64,000 bases of DNA from Candidatus Electrothrix rattekaaiensis (lineage in GTDB: Bacteria; Desulfobacterota; Desulfobulbia; Desulfobulbales; Desulfobulbaceae), in contig JAVQMD010000001.1 in the NCBI GenBank assembly GCA_032595675.1, positions 1,892,640-1,956,639 of the forward strand, read 5' to 3'. Numbering within the stretch: the first letter of the stretch is position 1; the number at the start of each line of letters is the position of its first letter. Below, piece by piece: positions 21,918-29,260 of this stretch. The translations under genes and the position numbers were made by a program. Below the pieces are notes generated by a model that did no database searches, had not been told where the DNA came from, and was given only the letters and a program-made list of their open reading frames with translations.

Positions 21918-22151
21918 ATGCATACCGGATCAGTTTTTGTCAATAATCGAACCCAGGCGGTCAGGCTGCCTGTAGAAACCCGTTTTCCTGGCTCAGTGAA
22001 AAAGGTTATCGTGCGAGTTGTAGGAAAAGATCGTGTACTTTCACCGGTTGAAAATACTTGGGACAGTTTTTTCAGGTCCGACGAAAAAGTGACAGATGAT
22101 TTCATGACAGAACGCGCTTCGCAGGAACAACAGGAAAGGGAAGCGTTCTGA
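21918..22151 (+). CDS. vapB: VapB-type antitoxin
   Basis: This 77-residue protein has an AbrB/SpoVT-like N-terminal DNA-binding part (VFVNNRTQAVRLPVE, typical of VapB) and an acidic, flexible tail that would wrap the toxin. GGAGG lies upstream of the ATG. Its stop TGA overlaps the vapC start (TGATG). Confidence 0.85.
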   Translation: MHTGSVFVNNRTQAVRLPVETRFPGSVKKVIVRVVGKDRVLSPVENTWDSFFRSDEKVTDDFMTERASQEQQEREAF

Positions 22152-22549
22152 TGTTGAAATACATGCTCGACACCAACATTGCTATCTACGTCATCAAACG
22201 GCGACCATTAGAGGTGCTGGATACGTTCAATCGCCATGCCGGTCAGATGTGCATCAGCTCAATCACTTTTGCCGAGTTAATGCACGGGGTGGAAAAATCT
22301 GCCAAGCCGGAACATAACCTGCGACAGGTGGAGGAATTTTCTTCCCGACTGGACATTTTGGAGTATGGCAAGAAAGCAGCTGAACATTACGGCGACATCC
22401 GTACTGATCTGGAACGGCGGGGAACACCGATTGGGGTAAATGATTTGCATATTGCTGGACATGCCCGCAGCGAGGGGTTGCTTGTTGTCACGAACAATTT
22501 GAGGGAGTTTGAACGGGTAGCCGGGTTACGGGTGGCGAATTGGCTGTAA
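22151..22549 (+). CDS. vapC: VapC toxin, PIN-domain ribonuclease
   Basis: The 132-residue PIN protein has the four acidic positions of the family: MLDTNI (Asp7 region), FAELMHG (Glu), NDLHIAGHA (Asp) and the later NLREFERV. VapC toxins cut tRNA or rRNA when released from the antitoxin. It is translationally coupled to vapB. Confidence 0.9.
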   Translation: MLKYMLDTNIAIYVIKRRPLEVLDTFNRHAGQMCISSITFAELMHGVEKSAKPEHNLRQVEEFSSRLDILEYGKKAAEHYGDIRTDLERRGTPIGVNDLHIAGHARSEGLLVVTNNLREFERVAGLRVANWL

Positions 22550-22596
22550 TGGACTGCGTATACGGCCCATGTCCTGCATAGCCAGCCATCTCCAAA

Positions 22597-22660
22597 GATG
22601 GGGGGGAATGTTGAACGGTTTGAGGAGGCTATTGCATCTCATTCAATCCGATCTCATTAA
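22597..22660 (+). pseudogene. Direct-repeat remnant, copy 1 (tail of a hoxW-like gene?)
   Basis: GATGGGGGGG onwards matches 23189-23238 at roughly 85% by eye. In one frame both copies read VERFE--IASH and end at a stop, so they look like related C-terminal coding tails. This copy precedes the nucleotidyltransferase gene; the other follows it. Confidence 0.5.
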
Positions 22661-22774
22661 ATCCGATGAGCCTTTCTCCAGTGATATTCCCTATTGACAG
22701 AGAAAGTTCCGGTTCTTATGCTGACCGAATAATGGAATGCACTGATGAATGATGGAAATACAATCTGATCAATC

Positions 22775-23065
22775 ATGAAAGAACTCGAAAGAATACAGCG
22801 ACAAAAAAAGAACATCCTCGCCATTGCCCAGCAGCACGGGATTGTCCGGCTACGAATATTCGGTTCTGTCATCCGAGGTGAAGAAACTCCGCAGAGTGAT
22901 ATTGACCTGCTTGTCGAGCTGGAGCCGGGGCGCAGCATGCTGGATATCGGCGGGGCACTGATCAGGCTGCAAGAACTGCTGGGTCGAAAGGTGGATATCG
23001 TGACGGAACGCGGCCTGCATTGGTATCTGAAAGAGAAGATTATGCAGGAAGCGATACAATTATGA
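22775..23065 (+). CDS. MNT-type minimal nucleotidyltransferase (orphan)
   Basis: This 96-residue protein has the pol-beta-type signature FGSVIRGEETPQSDIDLLVE and a third acidic residue in KVDIVTE. Such MntA antitoxins usually pair with a HEPN toxin (HepT) and inactivate it by AMPylation. No HEPN gene follows; instead a hoxW-like fragment and the K+ channel do. The gene is complete, but it is flanked by direct-repeat remnants, so a partner may have been lost. Confidence 0.82.
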   Translation: MKELERIQRQKKNILAIAQQHGIVRLRIFGSVIRGEETPQSDIDLLVELEPGRSMLDIGGALIRLQELLGRKVDIVTERGLHWYLKEKIMQEAIQL

Positions 23066-23077
23066 AGGAAGAGTTGG

Positions 23078-23240
23078 GCTGAAGACCGACGCTTCTGTCT
23101 CCTCTACCACCCATGCCATGTCACCGGGATCGGTGCTAGCCCTCTGCTCCCGGCTCTATGGAAAAACTCCGGCTGCTTATATGCTGGAGATAGGGGGGGG
23201 GTGTTGAGCGGTTTGAGAAAGATATTGCATCTCATCAAGA
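23078..23240 (+). pseudogene. Truncated hoxW paralogue fragment
   Basis: Bases 23092-23193 align without gaps to 17491-17592 of hoxW with about 12 differences in 102, mostly silent (reading STTHAMSPGSVLALC and LYGKTPAAYMLEI). After that a G-rich run shifts the frame and a short tail ends in a stop. There is no start codon or N-terminal half. It is a remnant of a second hydrogenase maturation protease gene. Confidence 0.8.
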
Positions 23241-23264
23241 TTGTTAACCATCAGGAGTTAGTCC

Positions 23265-23777
23265 TTGAAAATGAATGCTAAACCACGCTGGTTGCGATTC
23301 GTCAATTTGACAATACTTGTCGTAGTTGGTGGCAGAAGCACTCAAGAAATATGGGGCGGAGCTACTGGTCCTCTTCTTTGGCTTGGGTTGGCATTCTTTG
23401 GATTCCTTTTTCTGGGCGTGAATCTGGTATTTGCGCAAGAACTCATACGATTCGTTCAAACCCCACGAAAAAGTCGAGAGGCTGTAAAGGAATTTATCAT
23501 TGTATTCCTCACCGGGATTTCAAATGTGTTCATATTCGCTTTTATCTACAGTATTTACGGCATTGCTTCTGGAACCGATATAATAAAAGGCGATCTTGTT
23601 ACAAGTCTCTATTTTTCTATCGTCACATGGACAACTCTTGGCTACGGCGATTTCAGTCCATTACCTGCTCTCCGACTGGTTGCCGCCTTCGAAGCATTTC
23701 TCGGCTATTTATACATGGCGATATTGGTAGGGATGTTTCTTGATGTTCTGCAATACATTACGAAAACCAAAGAGTAA
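23265..23777 (+). CDS. Two-helix potassium channel protein
   Basis: The 170-residue membrane protein has several hydrophobic helices and a pore loop ending in the K+ selectivity filter TTLGYGD (in SIVTWTTLGYGDFSPL), followed by a final helix. There is no cytoplasmic RCK domain. I keep the TTG start at 23265 because AGGAG is seven bases upstream; the ATG at 23271 is too far from it. Function beyond K+ flux is unknown. Confidence 0.8.
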   Translation: MKMNAKPRWLRFVNLTILVVVGGRSTQEIWGGATGPLLWLGLAFFGFLFLGVNLVFAQELIRFVQTPRKSREAVKEFIIVFLTGISNVFIFAFIYSIYGIASGTDIIKGDLVTSLYFSIVTWTTLGYGDFSPLPALRLVAAFEAFLGYLYMAILVGMFLDVLQYITKTKE

Positions 23778-24170
23778 AAGTAACCTCGTCATCCGGTCCA
23801 CCCTATAATCTCACATAAAAACAACTAGGTTCTATGTTGTCCTGCTCATAGATATAGTGATACCTATCACGGCAGACTCGTCATACATATCACGACCGAA
23901 TCGCATCGGGTATCACGGCAGACTTGTCATGCGTATCACGACAGAATCGTATCGGGTATCCTTTACTCCCGTGCGGTCGGTACCCGCAGCGAGCATCAAT
24001 ACGGAACGCTGACCTATAAGGGGGAAGTCGTCCACGGGCAGGAACTCGGGGAAGAGAAAGACACGGATCTGGGATTGGTGCGATATTACGGCGAATCACC
24101 AAGTGAAATGTCGCCCTGGAAACGCACCGGTTGACATTTTTATTGATCCACCTGCTCTTCTGTCTGCAAG
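23778..24170. other. Intergenic region with 23-bp array and coding remnant
   Basis: This 393-bp gap contains the second 23-bp repeat array (23865-23956) and, from about 23967 to 24134, an open frame without a start codon (HQYGTLTYKGEVVHGQ to LVRYYGESPSEMSPW then stop) that looks like a C-terminal gene remnant of unknown family. Confidence 0.5.
23865..23956. repeat. Four 23-bp tandem repeats (two 46-bp units)
   Basis: Units start at 23865, 23888, 23911 and 23934, each beginning TATCACGRC. Units 1 and 3 (GGCAGAC-TGTCAT) and units 2 and 4 (GAATCGYATCGGG) are the closer pairs, giving a 46-bp higher-order repeat. A partial fifth unit (TATCC) follows. Confidence 0.85.
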
Positions 24171-24581
24171 TCATAACAAAGGATTACTCACTTTAATCCC
24201 GGAATAATATTGGCCTGCATTCAAGTCCTCAGAGTAGATACAGTCGCACCCGGCTGATTCAGCCGCACTGATAATGCAGGAATCCCAAAAGCTGATACTG
24301 TAACTGCTTCGTATTTCGATGGCACGCCGAATCAGGACGGGCTCAATGAGCACAACATCAAATGATTCCAGCAGGGTCAGCTGACGAAGAACGATAGCAT
24401 GATCCTGTTTCAACTTACTGAGAGCAACACTGGAATATTCCTGCAAAACCTGTGTGGAAATAACCCCCAGCCCGTTATCCATAAGCTCTTTGACCAGCTC
24501 AATCGCCTTGCGCTGCTTTTGTGGATCACGGCGATCATTGGCGTAAACGATCAGATTTGTGTCGATGAATATTTTTTTCAT
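24171..24581 (-). CDS. PIN-domain toxin
   Basis: This 136-residue PIN ribonuclease has FIDTNLIVYAND at the start, a glutamate in LQEYSSVAL, and FWDSCIISAAE with YSEDLNAGQ near the end, giving the acidic metal site. It overlaps the antitoxin gene by four bases (ATGA) and is probably autoregulated with it. Confidence 0.88.
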   Translation of the reverse strand: MKKIFIDTNLIVYANDRRDPQKQRKAIELVKELMDNGLGVISTQVLQEYSSVALSKLKQDHAIVLRQLTLLESFDVVLIEPVLIRRAIEIRSSYSISFWDSCIISAAESAGCDCIYSEDLNAGQYYSGIKVSNPLL

Positions 24582-24924: not shown

Positions 24925-24970
24925 GTTGAAATTATTTATCCACACTGTTTTACAGGGACTACCTGAATGA

Positions 24971-25014
24971 GCTGTTCGACCTCTAGCTGTTCGACCTCTA
25001 GCTGTTCGACCTCT
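24971..25014. repeat. Three 15-bp tandem repeats
   Basis: GCTGTTCGACCTCTA is repeated three times (last base missing in the third) in the leader of the EndoQ-UvrD gene, between the possible promoter and the start codon. Confidence 0.85.
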
Positions 25015-25112: not shown

Positions 25113-28100
25113 ATGCCCTCCATGCCTTATATCGCCGACCTCCACATCCACTCCCGCTACTCCCGTGCCACCAGCAAGGCCAGCAACCTGCACGGTCTGG
25201 CCGCCTGGGCCGCCATCAAAGGCATTGATGTTGTTGCCACTGGAGACTTCACCCATCCAGGCTGGTTCGCGCATCTGGCCGACAACTTGGAACCGGCAGA
25301 ACCCGGCCTCTTCCGCCTCAAGGAGCAGCCGAACTTTACTGAGCTGGCCCCGATCCTGCCGCCGGGTGTGCAGCCGGACTGCTCACAGATTCGTTTCCTC
25401 CTCAGCGCGGAAATCAGCTCCATCTATAAGCGGGGCGGCAAGGTGCGCAAGATCCATAACCTGCTCTATGTCCCGGACCTGGACGCAGTGCGGCGGATCA
25501 ACACGGTGCTGGCCGGGATCGGTAATCTCCATTCCGACGGACGCCCCATTCTCGGCCTGGATTCCAAGATCCTCCTGGAGATCCTGCTGGAGCAGGCCCC
25601 GGAAGGCTTTCTGGTGCCTGCCCATATCTGGACCCCCTGGTTTTCTCTGTTCGGGTCCAAGTCCGGCTTTGACAGTATTGAGGAATGCTTTGACGACCTG
25701 AGCAGCGAGATCTTTGCTCTGGAAACCGGCCTGTCCTCAGACCCGGAGATGAATCGCCATATCTCGGCCCTGGACCGTTTCTCTCTGATCTCTAACTCGG
25801 ACTGCCATTCCCCGTCCAAGCTGGGTCGGGAGGTCAATATCTTTGCCACCGAGCTGAGTTTCCCTGCTCTCAAAGAGGCCCTGCGCAACCCGGTGGATGA
25901 ACAGGGTAAGCAACGCTTTCAGGCCACAGTGGAATTCTACCCGGAAGAGGGCAAGTACCATTGCGATGGTCATCGCAAATGCGGGGTCTGTCTGGAACCT
26001 GCCCAGACTGTGGAGGCCGAAGGCATCTGCCCGCAATGCGGCAGGCCCATGACCATCGGAGTGCTCTACCGGGTCATGGAGCTGGCTGATCGAGACAAGC
26101 CGCAATGGCCCGAGGGTTCCCCGGTAGTACACAGCCTGATCCCCCTGGCCGAGATGCTGGGCGAACTCTTTAGCTGCGGGCCAGCGACCAAGAAAGTTGA
26201 TACGGTCTACGGCAAGCTTATCAAGAGCTTCGGTTCCGAATTCACCATCCTCTTGGACACACCCATTGAGGAGCTGAATACAGCCTCGCCCCTGCTGGGC
26301 ACAGCTATTCAGCGGGTACGAGAGAACAAGGTCATCCGCAAGCCCGGCTTTGACGGTGAGTTCGGGGTAATCCGGGTCTTTGAGGAGGATGAACGAAATC
26401 AGCTGGCTGGCCAGCTCAATCTCTTCGGCGTAACCCCGGCCAAGCCCCGCAAGAAGACCACCCGGAAGGCGGTAATCAGCAGAAAGAAGAGTCGAGTCAG
26501 CCCCTTGCAGGCCAGGAAGGAACTCAACCCGGCACAGCAGGCAGCAGTGGACAGCGAGGCCCGCCGGATCATTGTCCAGGCAGGGCCGGGTACGGGCAAG
26601 ACCCATACCCTGGTGCAGCGGGTGAGCCGTCTGCTGGAGGCTGAACAAAAGGCTATCACGGTTATCACCTTTACCAATAAGGCAGCGGATGAACTCCGCC
26701 AACGACTGGCTTTGGTGGATGGCTCCCCTTCTGTCCGAGTGGACACCTTCCACAGCTTCTGTCTTTATTGGCTACGCCGCTATGACCCTGCCCTACAACT
26801 GGCTGGCCCGGAAATGCGGACCTGGATCTTCCGCAAGCAGTATCCCCAGCTCAGCGAGCGAAAGCGCAAACAGCTCCGGCAGGAGGCTGGTCTCTTCCTT
26901 GCCGAGCAGTCAGTCCTGCCGGAACCTGCCGCCTGCCCGGATGCCCTCCGGCCCTATTTCACGGCTCTCCGCGAGCAGCACCTGCTGGATCTGGATGAGA
27001 TCGTGCCAGCCTGCACGGCCCTGCTCCAGAATGATGCATCCTTTGCCGAGGAGCTGCGCAAGGCCACGGCCCATCTGCTGGTGGATGAGTTCCAGGATCT
27101 CAATGCGGCCCAGTACGAGCTGGTTCGCCTGCTGGCAGAGACAGCCACAGTCTTTGCCATTGGTGACCCGGACCAGGCTATTTACGGCTTTCGCGGTTCC
27201 CGGCCTGTCTGGTTCCGCCGCTTTATCACGGAGCAGGAACCCGAATGCCACCAACTGGCAACCAACTACCGCAGTGGGGCGGATATCCTCCGGGCTGCGG
27301 GTGCGGTGATTGCGGCTAATCATGAAGAGGAGACTGGAGGGGCGACCCCCTGTGTTCGCCCTTGCCCACCGGAAAGGCACAGAGGCCTGACCCTACAACA
27401 TATACCGAAAACGGGGGCCATCTTCTGCCAGCTTGCCCCGACCGCCAAGGCAGAAGCCGCATTCATTGCCGGGCAGATCCAGCAGCTGATCGGTGGCACC
27501 TCGCATCGGGAAATCGACCGTATCACCGGTACCGAGGGCGGGCTGGCCCTGTCCGATATTGCGGTACTCTATCGCACCTCTCGGCAGGCCGAAGCCGTTG
27601 CCCAGGCCCTGGCAGAACGCACCCTTCCCTGCCAGCTGGTGGATATGCAGCCTTTTTATCTGCACGGTGAGATCAAACGCCTCTACTACGGACTCCTGCT
27701 GGCCGCAGAGCGGATTGATGCGGCGGAGCTGCTCTTTCTTCTGGCTCAGGAAAAGGGTGTCGGTGCCAAAACCCTAGCTGCTGCCGAGTCGGTGCTCAGC
27801 GAGGATAAGGACAGGCAACCGCTGGCCGCTCTTATCTGTGCTACCGGTGCTGCCGGGGCCGATCTGCCCAAAACCCTTCAGAAGCGTATTAACGAGCTGA
27901 ACAAGCTTGCTGTTCGGCTGTCCGAACAAGAATCTGTTGTTGAGACGGTGGATCTGCTCTGCGAAGAGTACCACCTGGACCGGGAAGATCCTGAGCTGAT
28001 CCGCTTCCGCCAGATGGCTATATCCTCCCCTTCCCTGTCTGCCTTTGCCCAACATCTGCGCAGACATCAGGACAGCCTTATCTATGACGAGCGGGCTGAG

Positions 28101-28448
28101 GCCGTGCTGCTGGCAACCCTACATGCGGCCAAGGGCCTGGAGTTCCGAGCCGTGTTCATGATCGGATGCGAAGAGGGGCTACTCCCGCTAACTCTGCGCG
28201 GCGAACTGGGCTCGGAGGCGGAGCAGGAGCATATTCAGGAGGAGCGGCGGCTCTTCTTTGTCGGCATGACCCGAGCTGCTGAGGTGCTCTATCTCACCGG
28301 GGCTGAGGAGCGACTGGGCTTTGCCGGGCTTGAACAGCGGATGCCGTCCCGCTTCCTGAATGAGATTCCTCCGGAGTTGTTGCAGAATTCGCTGACCGTG
28401 CAGAAGCAACGGAAGAAGAGTGCTGGTAAGCAGTTGAGTCTGTTCTGA
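25113..28448 (+). CDS. Endonuclease Q-like PHP module fused to UvrD helicase
   Basis: The gene encodes 1111 residues from the ATG at 25113; an upstream TTG at 25023 is possible. The N-terminal half reads as endonuclease Q: a PHP metallo-phosphoesterase start (DLHIHSRYS, then ATGDFTHPGW), LLSAEISSIY, SNSDCHSPSKLGRE, and a zinc site CGVC (near 290) with CPQCGRPMTIGVLYRV (near 306). A basic linker leads to a complete superfamily 1 helicase: Walker A AGPGTGKTHT (near 490), VDEFQDLN (near 657), QAIYGFRGS, ATLHAAKGLEF (near 1002) and FFVGMTRA. EndoQ cuts DNA 5' of deaminated bases, so a coupled nick-and-unwind repair enzyme is inferred. Confidence 0.8.
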   Translation: MPSMPYIADLHIHSRYSRATSKASNLHGLAAWAAIKGIDVVATGDFTHPGWFAHLADNLEPAEPGLFRLKEQPNFTELAPILPPGVQPDCSQIRFLLSAEISSIYKRGGKVRKIHNLLYVPDLDAVRRINTVLAGIGNLHSDGRPILGLDSKILLEILLEQAPEGFLVPAHIWTPWFSLFGSKSGFDSIEECFDDLSSEIFALETGLSSDPEMNRHISALDRFSLISNSDCHSPSKLGREVNIFATELSFPALKEALRNPVDEQGKQRFQATVEFYPEEGKYHCDGHRKCGVCLEPAQTVEAEGICPQCGRPMTIGVLYRVMELADRDKPQWPEGSPVVHSLIPLAEMLGELFSCGPATKKVDTVYGKLIKSFGSEFTILLDTPIEELNTASPLLGTAIQRVRENKVIRKPGFDGEFGVIRVFEEDERNQLAGQLNLFGVTPAKPRKKTTRKAVISRKKSRVSPLQARKELNPAQQAAVDSEARRIIVQAGPGTGKTHTLVQRVSRLLEAEQKAITVITFTNKAADELRQRLALVDGSPSVRVDTFHSFCLYWLRRYDPALQLAGPEMRTWIFRKQYPQLSERKRKQLRQEAGLFLAEQSVLPEPAACPDALRPYFTALREQHLLDLDEIVPACTALLQNDASFAEELRKATAHLLVDEFQDLNAAQYELVRLLAETATVFAIGDPDQAIYGFRGSRPVWFRRFITEQEPECHQLATNYRSGADILRAAGAVIAANHEEETGGATPCVRPCPPERHRGLTLQHIPKTGAIFCQLAPTAKAEAAFIAGQIQQLIGGTSHREIDRITGTEGGLALSDIAVLYRTSRQAEAVAQALAERTLPCQLVDMQPFYLHGEIKRLYYGLLLAAERIDAAELLFLLAQEKGVGAKTLAAAESVLSEDKDRQPLAALICATGAAGADLPKTLQKRINELNKLAVRLSEQESVVETVDLLCEEYHLDREDPELIRFRQMAISSPSLSAFAQHLRRHQDSLIYDERAEAVLLATLHAAKGLEFRAVFMIGCEEGLLPLTLRGELGSEAEQEHIQEERRLFFVGMTRAAEVLYLTGAEERLGFAGLEQRMPSRFLNEIPPELLQNSLTVQKQRKKSAGKQLSLF

Positions 28449-28570: not shown

Positions 28571-29260
28571 CTATTTTTTGGCAGCTGGTTTATTCCAGAG
28601 GAAATAATACGAACCGTAGCGGCCTTTTCTCTTTTCACCGCCTGCCTTTTGCTTGCCTTTCTCTGTCAGCTCATACCCATCATTGGTTATGGTCAGATAT
28701 TCCTTTTTTACCAATATTCCGAATATTTCGTTAGTGGTTTTCCCGACATGGGCAGCAAGCTTGGCCGTTGTCAGTTTCGTGTACTCTTGTGCTTTCTCAA
28801 CACCGACTTTTTTCTGCTGCGCACCGTCGGCCTTGTCGCTCTCCTCGCTGATGCGAATGAGCCGCTGTACTTCCTTATAGGCATCAACATAGAGCGACCT
28901 GTCCTGTGATTTATGCAGGCCAATTCCCATCTCGTTATTATTCACCTGACTGAAATCATACAGGTTCATACTGGTAACAATGCAGTAATTTTCATTCAGA
29001 TAACATTTGGCATGGAGATTTTTACAAAACCCGATTTTAATGCGCTTCTGCTCGGCAAGCCATTTCCTTTCTTCCGGCTGCAAATCCTTTTTGCCATAGA
29101 TAATCATGATATCAACCTGTCCGCTCTGATCACGCAGCAGCTCTCTGACCCGCTCGTTCAACTTGAGATACGGACTGACCAGAACCAGCTCTTCCTTGGC
29201 TGTCCGAATCAGTTCCTCCAACAAAAAATTCAATGCGCTAGTATTGAGAAAATTCGCCAT
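28571..29260 (-). CDS. Phospholipase D-like nuclease with winged-helix tail
   Basis: This 229-residue protein has one PLD/HKD half-site (NLHAKCYLNE, then TSMNL) after an N-terminal EELVLVSPYLKLN strand. A single motif implies an active dimer. The C-terminal 80 residues look like a winged helix (LTTAKLAAHVGKTTNEIFG, then LTITNDGYELTEKGK). It is convergent with the EndoQ-UvrD gene and may act on DNA; no direct evidence for the substrate is seen. Confidence 0.75.
   Translation of the reverse strand: MANFLNTSALNFLLEELIRTAKEELVLVSPYLKLNERVRELLRDQSGQVDIMIIYGKKDLQPEERKWLAEQKRIKIGFCKNLHAKCYLNENYCIVTSMNLYDFSQVNNNEMGIGLHKSQDRSLYVDAYKEVQRLIRISEESDKADGAQQKKVGVEKAQEYTKLTTAKLAAHVGKTTNEIFGILVKKEYLTITNDGYELTEKGKQKAGGEKRKGRYGSYYFLWNKPAAKK

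Follow-up and report, generated by a model that had tools for sequence, protein, structure and literature searches.

The gene at positions 25113-28448 (+) of a 64,000-nucleotide stretch of the Candidatus Electrothrix rattekaaiensis genome (assembly GCA_032595675.1, contig JAVQMD010000001.1, positions 1,892,640 to 1,956,639; hereafter the window) encodes a protein of 1111 amino acids, in which an intact endonuclease Q (EndoQ) module is joined to a complete superfamily 1A (SF1A) helicase. The fusion is probably a housekeeping enzyme of alternative excision repair that would be tethered to the sliding clamp, nick DNA at a deaminated base and displace the nicked strand. The properties computed directly are the architecture of the protein, its intact motifs, its fold, its breadth, the selection acting on it and the link of a clamp-binding-like motif to fused helicases. 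Two findings go beyond a first-pass annotation of the window, namely how widely the fusion occurs and the pair of motifs of this kind. No description of an EndoQ-helicase fusion was found in the open-access literature searched, though an earlier notice is possible.

The reading frame is intact and has no internal stop. Four of five congeneric orthologues have a methionine at the position of M4, as judged by a script that took the methionine nearest the DLHIHS motif, and this makes a start at 25122 likely, albeit on weak evidence. The EndoQ module (residues 1-432, 25113-26408), as assigned by phmmer, TIGR00375 and a fold match, consists of a PHP nuclease, a zinc domain and a helical domain. It is followed directly on its 3' side by QLNLF (residues 434-438, 26412-26426), an internal beta-clamp-binding-like motif, and then by a basic, probably flexible linker predicted with low confidence (residues 439-466, 26427-26510). 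The SF1A helicase of the UvrD/PcrA/Rep type occupies residues 467-1093 (26511-28391), with Walker A at 490-497 and DEFQD at 658-662, and was assigned from Pfam, Protein Data Bank matches and motif conservation. A second beta-clamp-binding-like pentapeptide, QLSLF (residues 1107-1111, 28431-28445), forms the C-terminus, and all of these features lie on the plus strand. In a phmmer comparison with solved structures, residues 8-426 matched EndoQ of Pyrococcus furiosus (PfuEndoQ, 5zb8, E 1.6e-52) and residues 469-1095 matched PcrA (E 5.8e-53). Pfam at E 0.001 labels the helicase half only (PF00580, E 3.3e-52; PF13361, E 7.2e-37; related AAA models), and these matches, together with the invariant motif residues given below, bear out the complete superfamily 1 helicase that the first-pass annotation had placed in the same chain.

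Conservation in the EndoQ module was assessed in an alignment of 61 EndoQ domains, 35 fused (the window protein included) and 26 not fused, and in a second alignment (A2) of 62 fused proteins, comprising the window protein and 61 of the 67 complete fused loci of the best-80 scan described below, with L127, L134, L140, L154, L157 and L171 left out. The PHP metal residues D9, H11, H13, E100, H115, H171, E204, D230 and H232 are all kept in the window protein and, together with G206, S208, C290, C306 and C309, are invariant in 61/61 EndoQ domains. Loss of metal residues had been named beforehand as an argument against an EndoQ-like N-terminal half, and none was lost in any of these domains; the same residues are also among the invariant columns of the 62 fused proteins. 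In the phmmer alignment, H11, H13, E100, H115 and H171 of the window protein align with H8, H10, E76, H84 and H139 of PfuEndoQ, E204, G206, S208, D230 and H232 align with E167, G169, S171, D192 and H194, and the cysteines of the zinc domain align with those of the Pfu zinc domain. The Pfu residue numbers are those of PMC4357722 and PMC8307549. Roles for Pfu E76, H84, H139, G169 and S171 are given in PMC8307549, according to which G169 and S171 belong to the lesion pocket and exclude T and A. The corresponding Gly/Ser pair (G206 and S208 in the window protein) is present in 61/61 EndoQ domains.

A CPxCG-type zinc domain of EndoQ was recognised from the invariant C290, C306 and C309. The zinc site recorded by the first-pass annotation is thus present, but not with the exact motif given for it, since C293 of the first CxxC (290-293) is Cys in just 26/62 fused proteins and 18/61 EndoQ domains. 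H287 is conserved in 59/62 fused proteins, and Pfu has Cys at this position. Because C293 is variable and H287 stands at the Pfu Cys, the ligand set is probably H287/C290/C306/C309 (25971-26039), as suggested by conservation and the Pfu alignment. The NCBIfam model TIGR00375 matched residues 110-420 (E 1e-52; profile positions 76-374 only) with 179.8 bits, or 165.4 bits in the genome search, which is below the curated cut-off of 326.6 bits; control genomes with a match were those of B. subtilis, M. jannaschii and M. acetivorans. As judged by these scores, the window protein is homologous to the TIGR00375 equivalog but is not filed in it. The EndoQ half is under purifying selection within the genus (ratio of nonsynonymous to synonymous rates, dN/dS, 0.04-0.08 in five pairs).

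An AlphaFold2 model built from the alignment of 62 full-length fused proteins had a mean predicted local distance difference test score (pLDDT) of 87.6 and a predicted template modelling score (pTM) of 0.64, with pLDDT below 50 in the linker (436-467), two loops (750-764 and 803-808) and the tail (1094-1111). The EndoQ half (model residues 4-434) matched PfuEndoQ 5zb8_B with Z 40.8 and a root-mean-square deviation of 2.7 over 385 aligned residues, and matched 7k30_A, an EndoQ with a deoxyuridine-containing duplex, with Z 39.5. The predicted fold therefore agrees with the crystal structures of EndoQ, as the EndoQ-like reading of this half had anticipated. The helicase half matched UvrD 4c30_D (Z 42.8), and a Foldseek search of the model likewise gave matches to solved structures of both halves.

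In the helicase half, Q475, K496, D658-E659, R694, R720 and R1054 are kept in 35/35 and 62/62 fused proteins of the two sets; these residues belong to the Q motif, Walker A, DExQ and motifs IV-VI. This half is also under purifying selection within the genus (dN/dS 0.14-0.24, five pairs). With 269 bits against a cut-off of 911 for the PcrA equivalog, the helicase is not placed among PcrA/UvrD/Rep orthologues. A helicase tree of 61 rows was built from 34 fused helicases (every third fused row and the window protein), four of six helicases encoded next to a separate EndoQ gene, and 23 canonical paralogues. The latter were loci with a frame of at least 600 amino acids and a Walker pattern; L203 and L207 (fused), L199 and L204-L206 (outside these limits) and L208 were left out of the canonical set. 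The 23 canonical paralogues, mostly PcrA-like and from related genomes of the same order, fell on one side of a branch with support 98, and all 34 fused helicases were outside that side. The fused helicase thus appears not to be a recent duplicate of the PcrA/UvrD that the host already has.

A dispersed genomic repeat, GGGGCGACCCCCTGTGTTCGCCC..., lies in frame at 27336-27431 (+) in a helicase loop predicted with low confidence (residues ~742-773), and the genome contains related stretches at four further sites. It is carried by two of the five congeneric orthologues and absent from three. The repeat resembles a mobile palindromic element able to sit within coding sequence and is probably not part of the function of the fusion.

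The pentapeptide at the C-terminus was compared with a QL[SD]LF-type sequence, which we take to be the beta-clamp-binding consensus. QLSLF of the window protein is of this type and lies in the tail with pLDDT below 50, where it would be accessible. The pattern Q[LMI]x[LMIF][FLIM] (strict form Q[LM]xLF) was sought within 15 residues of the C-terminus in 102 complete fused proteins, three fusions cut by contig ends being left out and the frame-shifted L127 being kept as a miss. It was present in 85/102 (strict form, 70). When the last 40 residues were shuffled, the mean was 0.71 (strict, 0.055), and elsewhere in these proteins 29 of 6952 windows of 15 residues carried the pattern. All six adjacent separate helicases also have the C-terminal motif, and it is absent from 23/23 canonical paralogues, as seen in their printed last 14 residues. 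The motif at the C-terminus of non-fused EndoQs stands at the same place as the internal copy of fused proteins. The window protein carries QLNLF and QLSLF as two putative docking motifs, which are likely to serve the beta clamp. For comparison, the clamp motifs of MutS are QMSLL and QLSFF (PMC8034640). Bacterial EndoQs were said in 2016 to bear a beta-clamp consensus in their C-terminal region (PMC4858679, a text that also mentions a Desulfovibrio homologue); the second, helicase-borne motif is an addition of the present analysis, unless the supplement of that paper shows it.

At six loci (L060, L073, L079, L160, L172 and L177), the helicase is encoded by a gene of its own behind that of EndoQ, and it too ends in a clamp-like motif. 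A related motif is found in each of the two proteins of the pairs at L073, L079, L172 and L177, with QGTLF of the L172 EndoQ falling outside the pattern. The Walker A pattern is missing from the helicase frame of L060 and L160, which may be broken fusions.

The EndoQ family was matched in 192 of the 297 genomes sampled from the phylum. Sixty regions, hand-picked for diversity among the matches listed and hence not a random sample, comprised 34 fused loci, 23 with EndoQ alone and three with a helicase gene adjacent. When genome contigs were scanned with the EndoQ alignment A1, at least 585 relatives were confirmed, the best 80 of which were retained: 70 fused, seven alone and three with an adjacent helicase gene. 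As these 80 were ranked by likeness to the EndoQ part of this fused protein, the share of 70/80 overstates the fused share. Their NCBI labels include Thermodesulfobacteriota, Actinomycetota, Balneolota, Melainabacteria, Elusimicrobiota, Planctomycetota, Binatota and others, and fusion records titled as strains are found in Thermodesulfobacteriota, Balneolota and Actinomycetota. Several of the matches that stand alone in a phylum are metagenome bins, in which contamination is possible. Myxococcota, a label borne by 'Deltaproteobacteria bacterium' assemblies, was not counted as an independent phylum, since it is probably an artefact of naming. As judged by these records, the fusion is widespread in bacteria, among which EndoQ is said to be restricted to limited groups, besides Euryarchaea (PMC8438529, PMC6202378).

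In the genus of the window, the fusion was matched in six of eight genomes, the two without a match being 89% and 69% complete. An EndoQ tree of 141 rows, made by a quick method and rooted for drawing only, required 15 changes of the fused label, as compared with 32 in shuffles. One group in this tree is mostly stand-alone (19 alone and three adjacent of 22 rows), and the remaining unfused rows are interspersed with fused ones, a pattern expected from losses of the helicase or from assembly breaks. Among 23 genomes with a stand-alone EndoQ, three encode a helicase with a clamp-like end on another contig, five gave no helicase match at 1e-50, and in the others the helicase lacked the pattern or was cut. 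An origin from a phage or plasmid was rejected, as no relatives of the fusion were found in viral contigs (in a pattern-seeded scan) or in plasmid or phage records.

The distribution of EndoQ was compared with that of uracil-DNA glycosylase (UDG) and endonuclease V (EndoV), the absence of which was judged by Pfam searches that diverged genes could escape. The genome of the window has one UDG-superfamily match (E 3.1e-20), and no EndoV match was found in it or in the other six sampled genomes of its family. A second family (f42), Desulfovibrionaceae-like by the EndoQ tree alone, where it groups with named Desulfovibrionaceae and Desulfohalobiaceae, is represented by 119 genomes. Here EndoQ was found in 113 (98/99 good genomes), UDG in 40 (35/99 good) and EndoV in two, both of which are UDG carriers. 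Among the 79 without detected UDG or EndoV, 77 have EndoQ, and the two that lack all three are 54% and 67% complete. By frame length, 104/113 EndoQ carriers are as would be expected of a fusion, with the best match inside an open frame of at least 800 residues, and the ten genomes of this family in the phylum sample all have EndoQ without UDG or EndoV. In three genomes of this family (G353, G410 and G421), the EndoQ match contains an internal TAG, possibly reflecting decay of the system; G353 has a UDG match.

In the proposed route, the EndoQ module would flip out the deaminated base (uracil, hypoxanthine and probably xanthine or an abasic site) and nick 5' of it, leaving a 3'-OH primer and a lesion-bearing strand with a 5'-phosphate. 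The tethered SF1A helicase would load at the nick on the intact strand and peel off the lesion-bearing strand as a 5' flap. SF1A helicases of this family translocate 3'-to-5', and such a motor on the intact strand would therefore peel the lesion strand in the direction of synthesis. A polymerase would extend the 3'-OH during peeling, a flap nuclease (e.g. the 5' nuclease of Pol I) would trim the flap and ligase would seal. Docked on the beta clamp through both clamp-binding-like motifs, the enzyme would act preferentially on newly replicated DNA, and its nick would pass to a clamp-bound polymerase. In this scheme we infer which substrates are used, the polarity and loading strand of the helicase, binding to the clamp, removal of the flap, the choice of strand and the coupling. 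Shiraishi 2015 (PMC4357722) includes a displacement step in its left pathway, and here the motor for it would be built in; docking on the clamp behind the fork would be as for MutS and MutL (PMC8034640). The processing of the EndoQ nick was called elusive in a 2021 review (PMC8438529). The widespread natural fusion points to an SF1A helicase as the next actor after this nick and to the beta clamp as a likely platform, and both roles are testable in mesophilic bacteria. In some sulfate reducers, the fusion may be a main starter of deaminated-base repair. A further claim, that this widespread one-chain, clamp-tethered machine is the sole initiator of uracil and hypoxanthine repair, of the three families tested, in most of the Desulfovibrionaceae-like genomes and replaces UDG and EndoV there, is tentative and somewhat more doubtful than probable.

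The window protein resembles PfuEndoQ and its Thermococcus counterpart TkoEndoQ in its whole fold, metal site, Gly/Ser pocket and the sliding-clamp motif right after the module. The archaeal enzymes differ in being stand-alone proteins of ~400-424 amino acids that bind PCNA by a PIP box, and in the window protein His287 replaces the Pfu Cys, by alignment, and an SF1A helicase is appended. The C-terminal PIP box of archaeal EndoQ binds PCNA, which stimulates EndoQ (PMC4858679). EndoQ of Bacillus pumilus and B. subtilis, for the former of which activity was shown, as cited in PMC6202378, is likewise a bacterial EndoQ, the group for which the beta-clamp consensus was noted (PMC4858679), but is stand-alone, with no helicase recorded in the text available. 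With PcrA, UvrD and Rep the protein shares the SF1A motifs and fold, but the clamp-like motif replaces the usual tail at its C-terminus. In the UvrABC-UvrD and MutH/MutL-UvrD systems, nicking is followed by strand removal by a UvrD-type helicase. The sequence of nick and strand removal by MutH and UvrD is also described in PMC8034640; in these systems nuclease and helicase are separate proteins, whereas the window protein is one chain. In the AGT-EndoV protein of Ferroplasma, a deaminated-base endonuclease is also joined to another repair domain (PMC4357722), but there EndoV, which cuts on the 3' side of the base, is paired with an alkyltransferase domain.

Several observations weigh against a dedicated repair enzyme of this kind. 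For the bacterial fused proteins, both lesion nicking and unwinding in one chain are predicted activities, and the model, with a pTM of 0.64, leaves it uncertain how the two modules lie relative to each other. EndoQ occurs without the helicase in other lineages (23 of the 60 phylum loci), which argues that coupling in one chain is dispensable. The C-terminal pattern is missing from 17/102 fused proteins, several of which have near variants, the internal motif is present in 61/102 by a permissive pattern for which no null was computed, and only 10/36 non-fused EndoQs have a clamp-like motif at their own C-terminus. On the helicase tree, three of the four adjacent separate helicases stand beside the canonical side (support 88) and one is among the fused. 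As for the genomes, 19/297 of the phylum sample have neither EndoQ nor UDG, and in the Desulfovibrionaceae-like family EndoQ is missing from 4/40 UDG carriers and 2/79 non-carriers, a difference that is not significant (Fisher p 0.18). The idea that EndoQ generally takes the place of UDG across the phylum was rejected, because the two are positively associated: 179/192 EndoQ carriers also have UDG, as compared with 86/105 of the other genomes.

Among other explanations, a two-sided excision, in which EndoQ and EndoV cut on the 5' and 3' sides of the base, respectively, and the helicase does no more than release the short fragment, corresponds to the right-hand pathway of Shiraishi 2015 (PMC4357722), and EndoV was matched in 80/192 EndoQ carriers of the phylum sample. 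However, EndoV was not found in the genome of the window, in six other genomes of its family or in 117/119 Desulfovibrionaceae-like genomes (EndoQ being present in 113 of the 119), and a two-sided pathway is therefore not general and quite unlikely here. The clamp-like motifs and the dnaN vicinity noted below would also suit a strand marker in replication or mismatch repair, whereby the clamp-bound enzyme nicks at uracil misincorporated into new strands and the helicase serves mainly to open a site for mismatch repair or for removal of a patch. In bacteria without MutH, the mismatch-repair helicase is unclear (PMC8034640). Yet a mismatch-repair gene was found in 0/6 recurrent neighbour families looked up, and the EndoQ pocket suits deaminated bases rather than mismatches, so that such a role appears unlikely.

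An antiviral role has been proposed for bacterial EndoQ (PMC8307549), and the helicase half matches GajB models (best E 8.7e-74), as would be expected of a system directed against phage DNA that contains uracil or is otherwise modified. These matches, however, reflect the common UvrD fold, PcrA also being matched (E 7.4e-80, in a library of different size), and the eight neighbouring open reading frames scanned include no GajA-like gene that would make up a Gabija (GajAB) system. The occurrence in six of eight genus genomes and, for EndoQ, in 113/119 of the Desulfovibrionaceae-like family is unlike that of patchy defence genes, and no relatives were found in the viral contigs (pattern-seeded scan), plasmids and phage records, which makes a defence function very improbable. 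The interchange of fused and unfused states on the EndoQ tree (15 changes) could reflect a chance fusion, with the helicase half merely a DNA-loading or clamp-recruiting part and no coupled unwinding, but the ATPase and translocation motifs are invariant in 35/35 and 62/62 fused proteins and two-gene versions lie adjacent at six loci; a chance fusion is thus hardly probable. A clamp-tethered enzyme that nicks and displaces is accordingly the interpretation preferred here.

Recurrent gene families near EndoQ loci yielded no universal neighbour among those looked at, and a conserved neighbourhood was rejected. The dnaN gene was present in the fetched flank of 12/140 loci, ten in one Desulfobacterales-type context, with gyrB in 9/10 and an RdgC-like gene in 9/10, and two in Melainabacteria. 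This vicinity is suggestive but mostly of one shared ancestry. An RdgC-like gene (PF04381 in L158) and/or dnaN-gyrB is divergent from the EndoQ-helicase gene at L060, L067, L120, L122, L124, L127, L129, L130, L135, L142, L149 and L158.

The first-pass annotation had also drawn attention to a 15-bp triplicate in the leader and to a convergent PLD nuclease gene. Three exact tandem 15-mers are indeed found at 24970-25014, upstream of the fusion gene, but no exact copy of the unit lies within 250 nucleotides upstream of the five congeneric orthologues, and a regulatory element was rejected on these grounds. The convergent PLD-family gene (28571-29260, -), which gave weak matches to DrmC, MkoB and TrmB-like models, is likewise real; it was matched in 2/8 genus genomes only, one of which lacks a fusion match, and was rejected as a partner. 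The leader repeat and the PLD gene are probably not part of the fusion system. The eight neighbouring open reading frames scanned encode PIN, nucleotidyltransferase, ion channel, PIN, PLD, transketolase and Dus proteins and one without a family. The small genes at 22151-24581, with PIN domain proteins at both ends and a nucleotidyltransferase and an ion-channel protein among them, resemble toxin-antitoxin modules.

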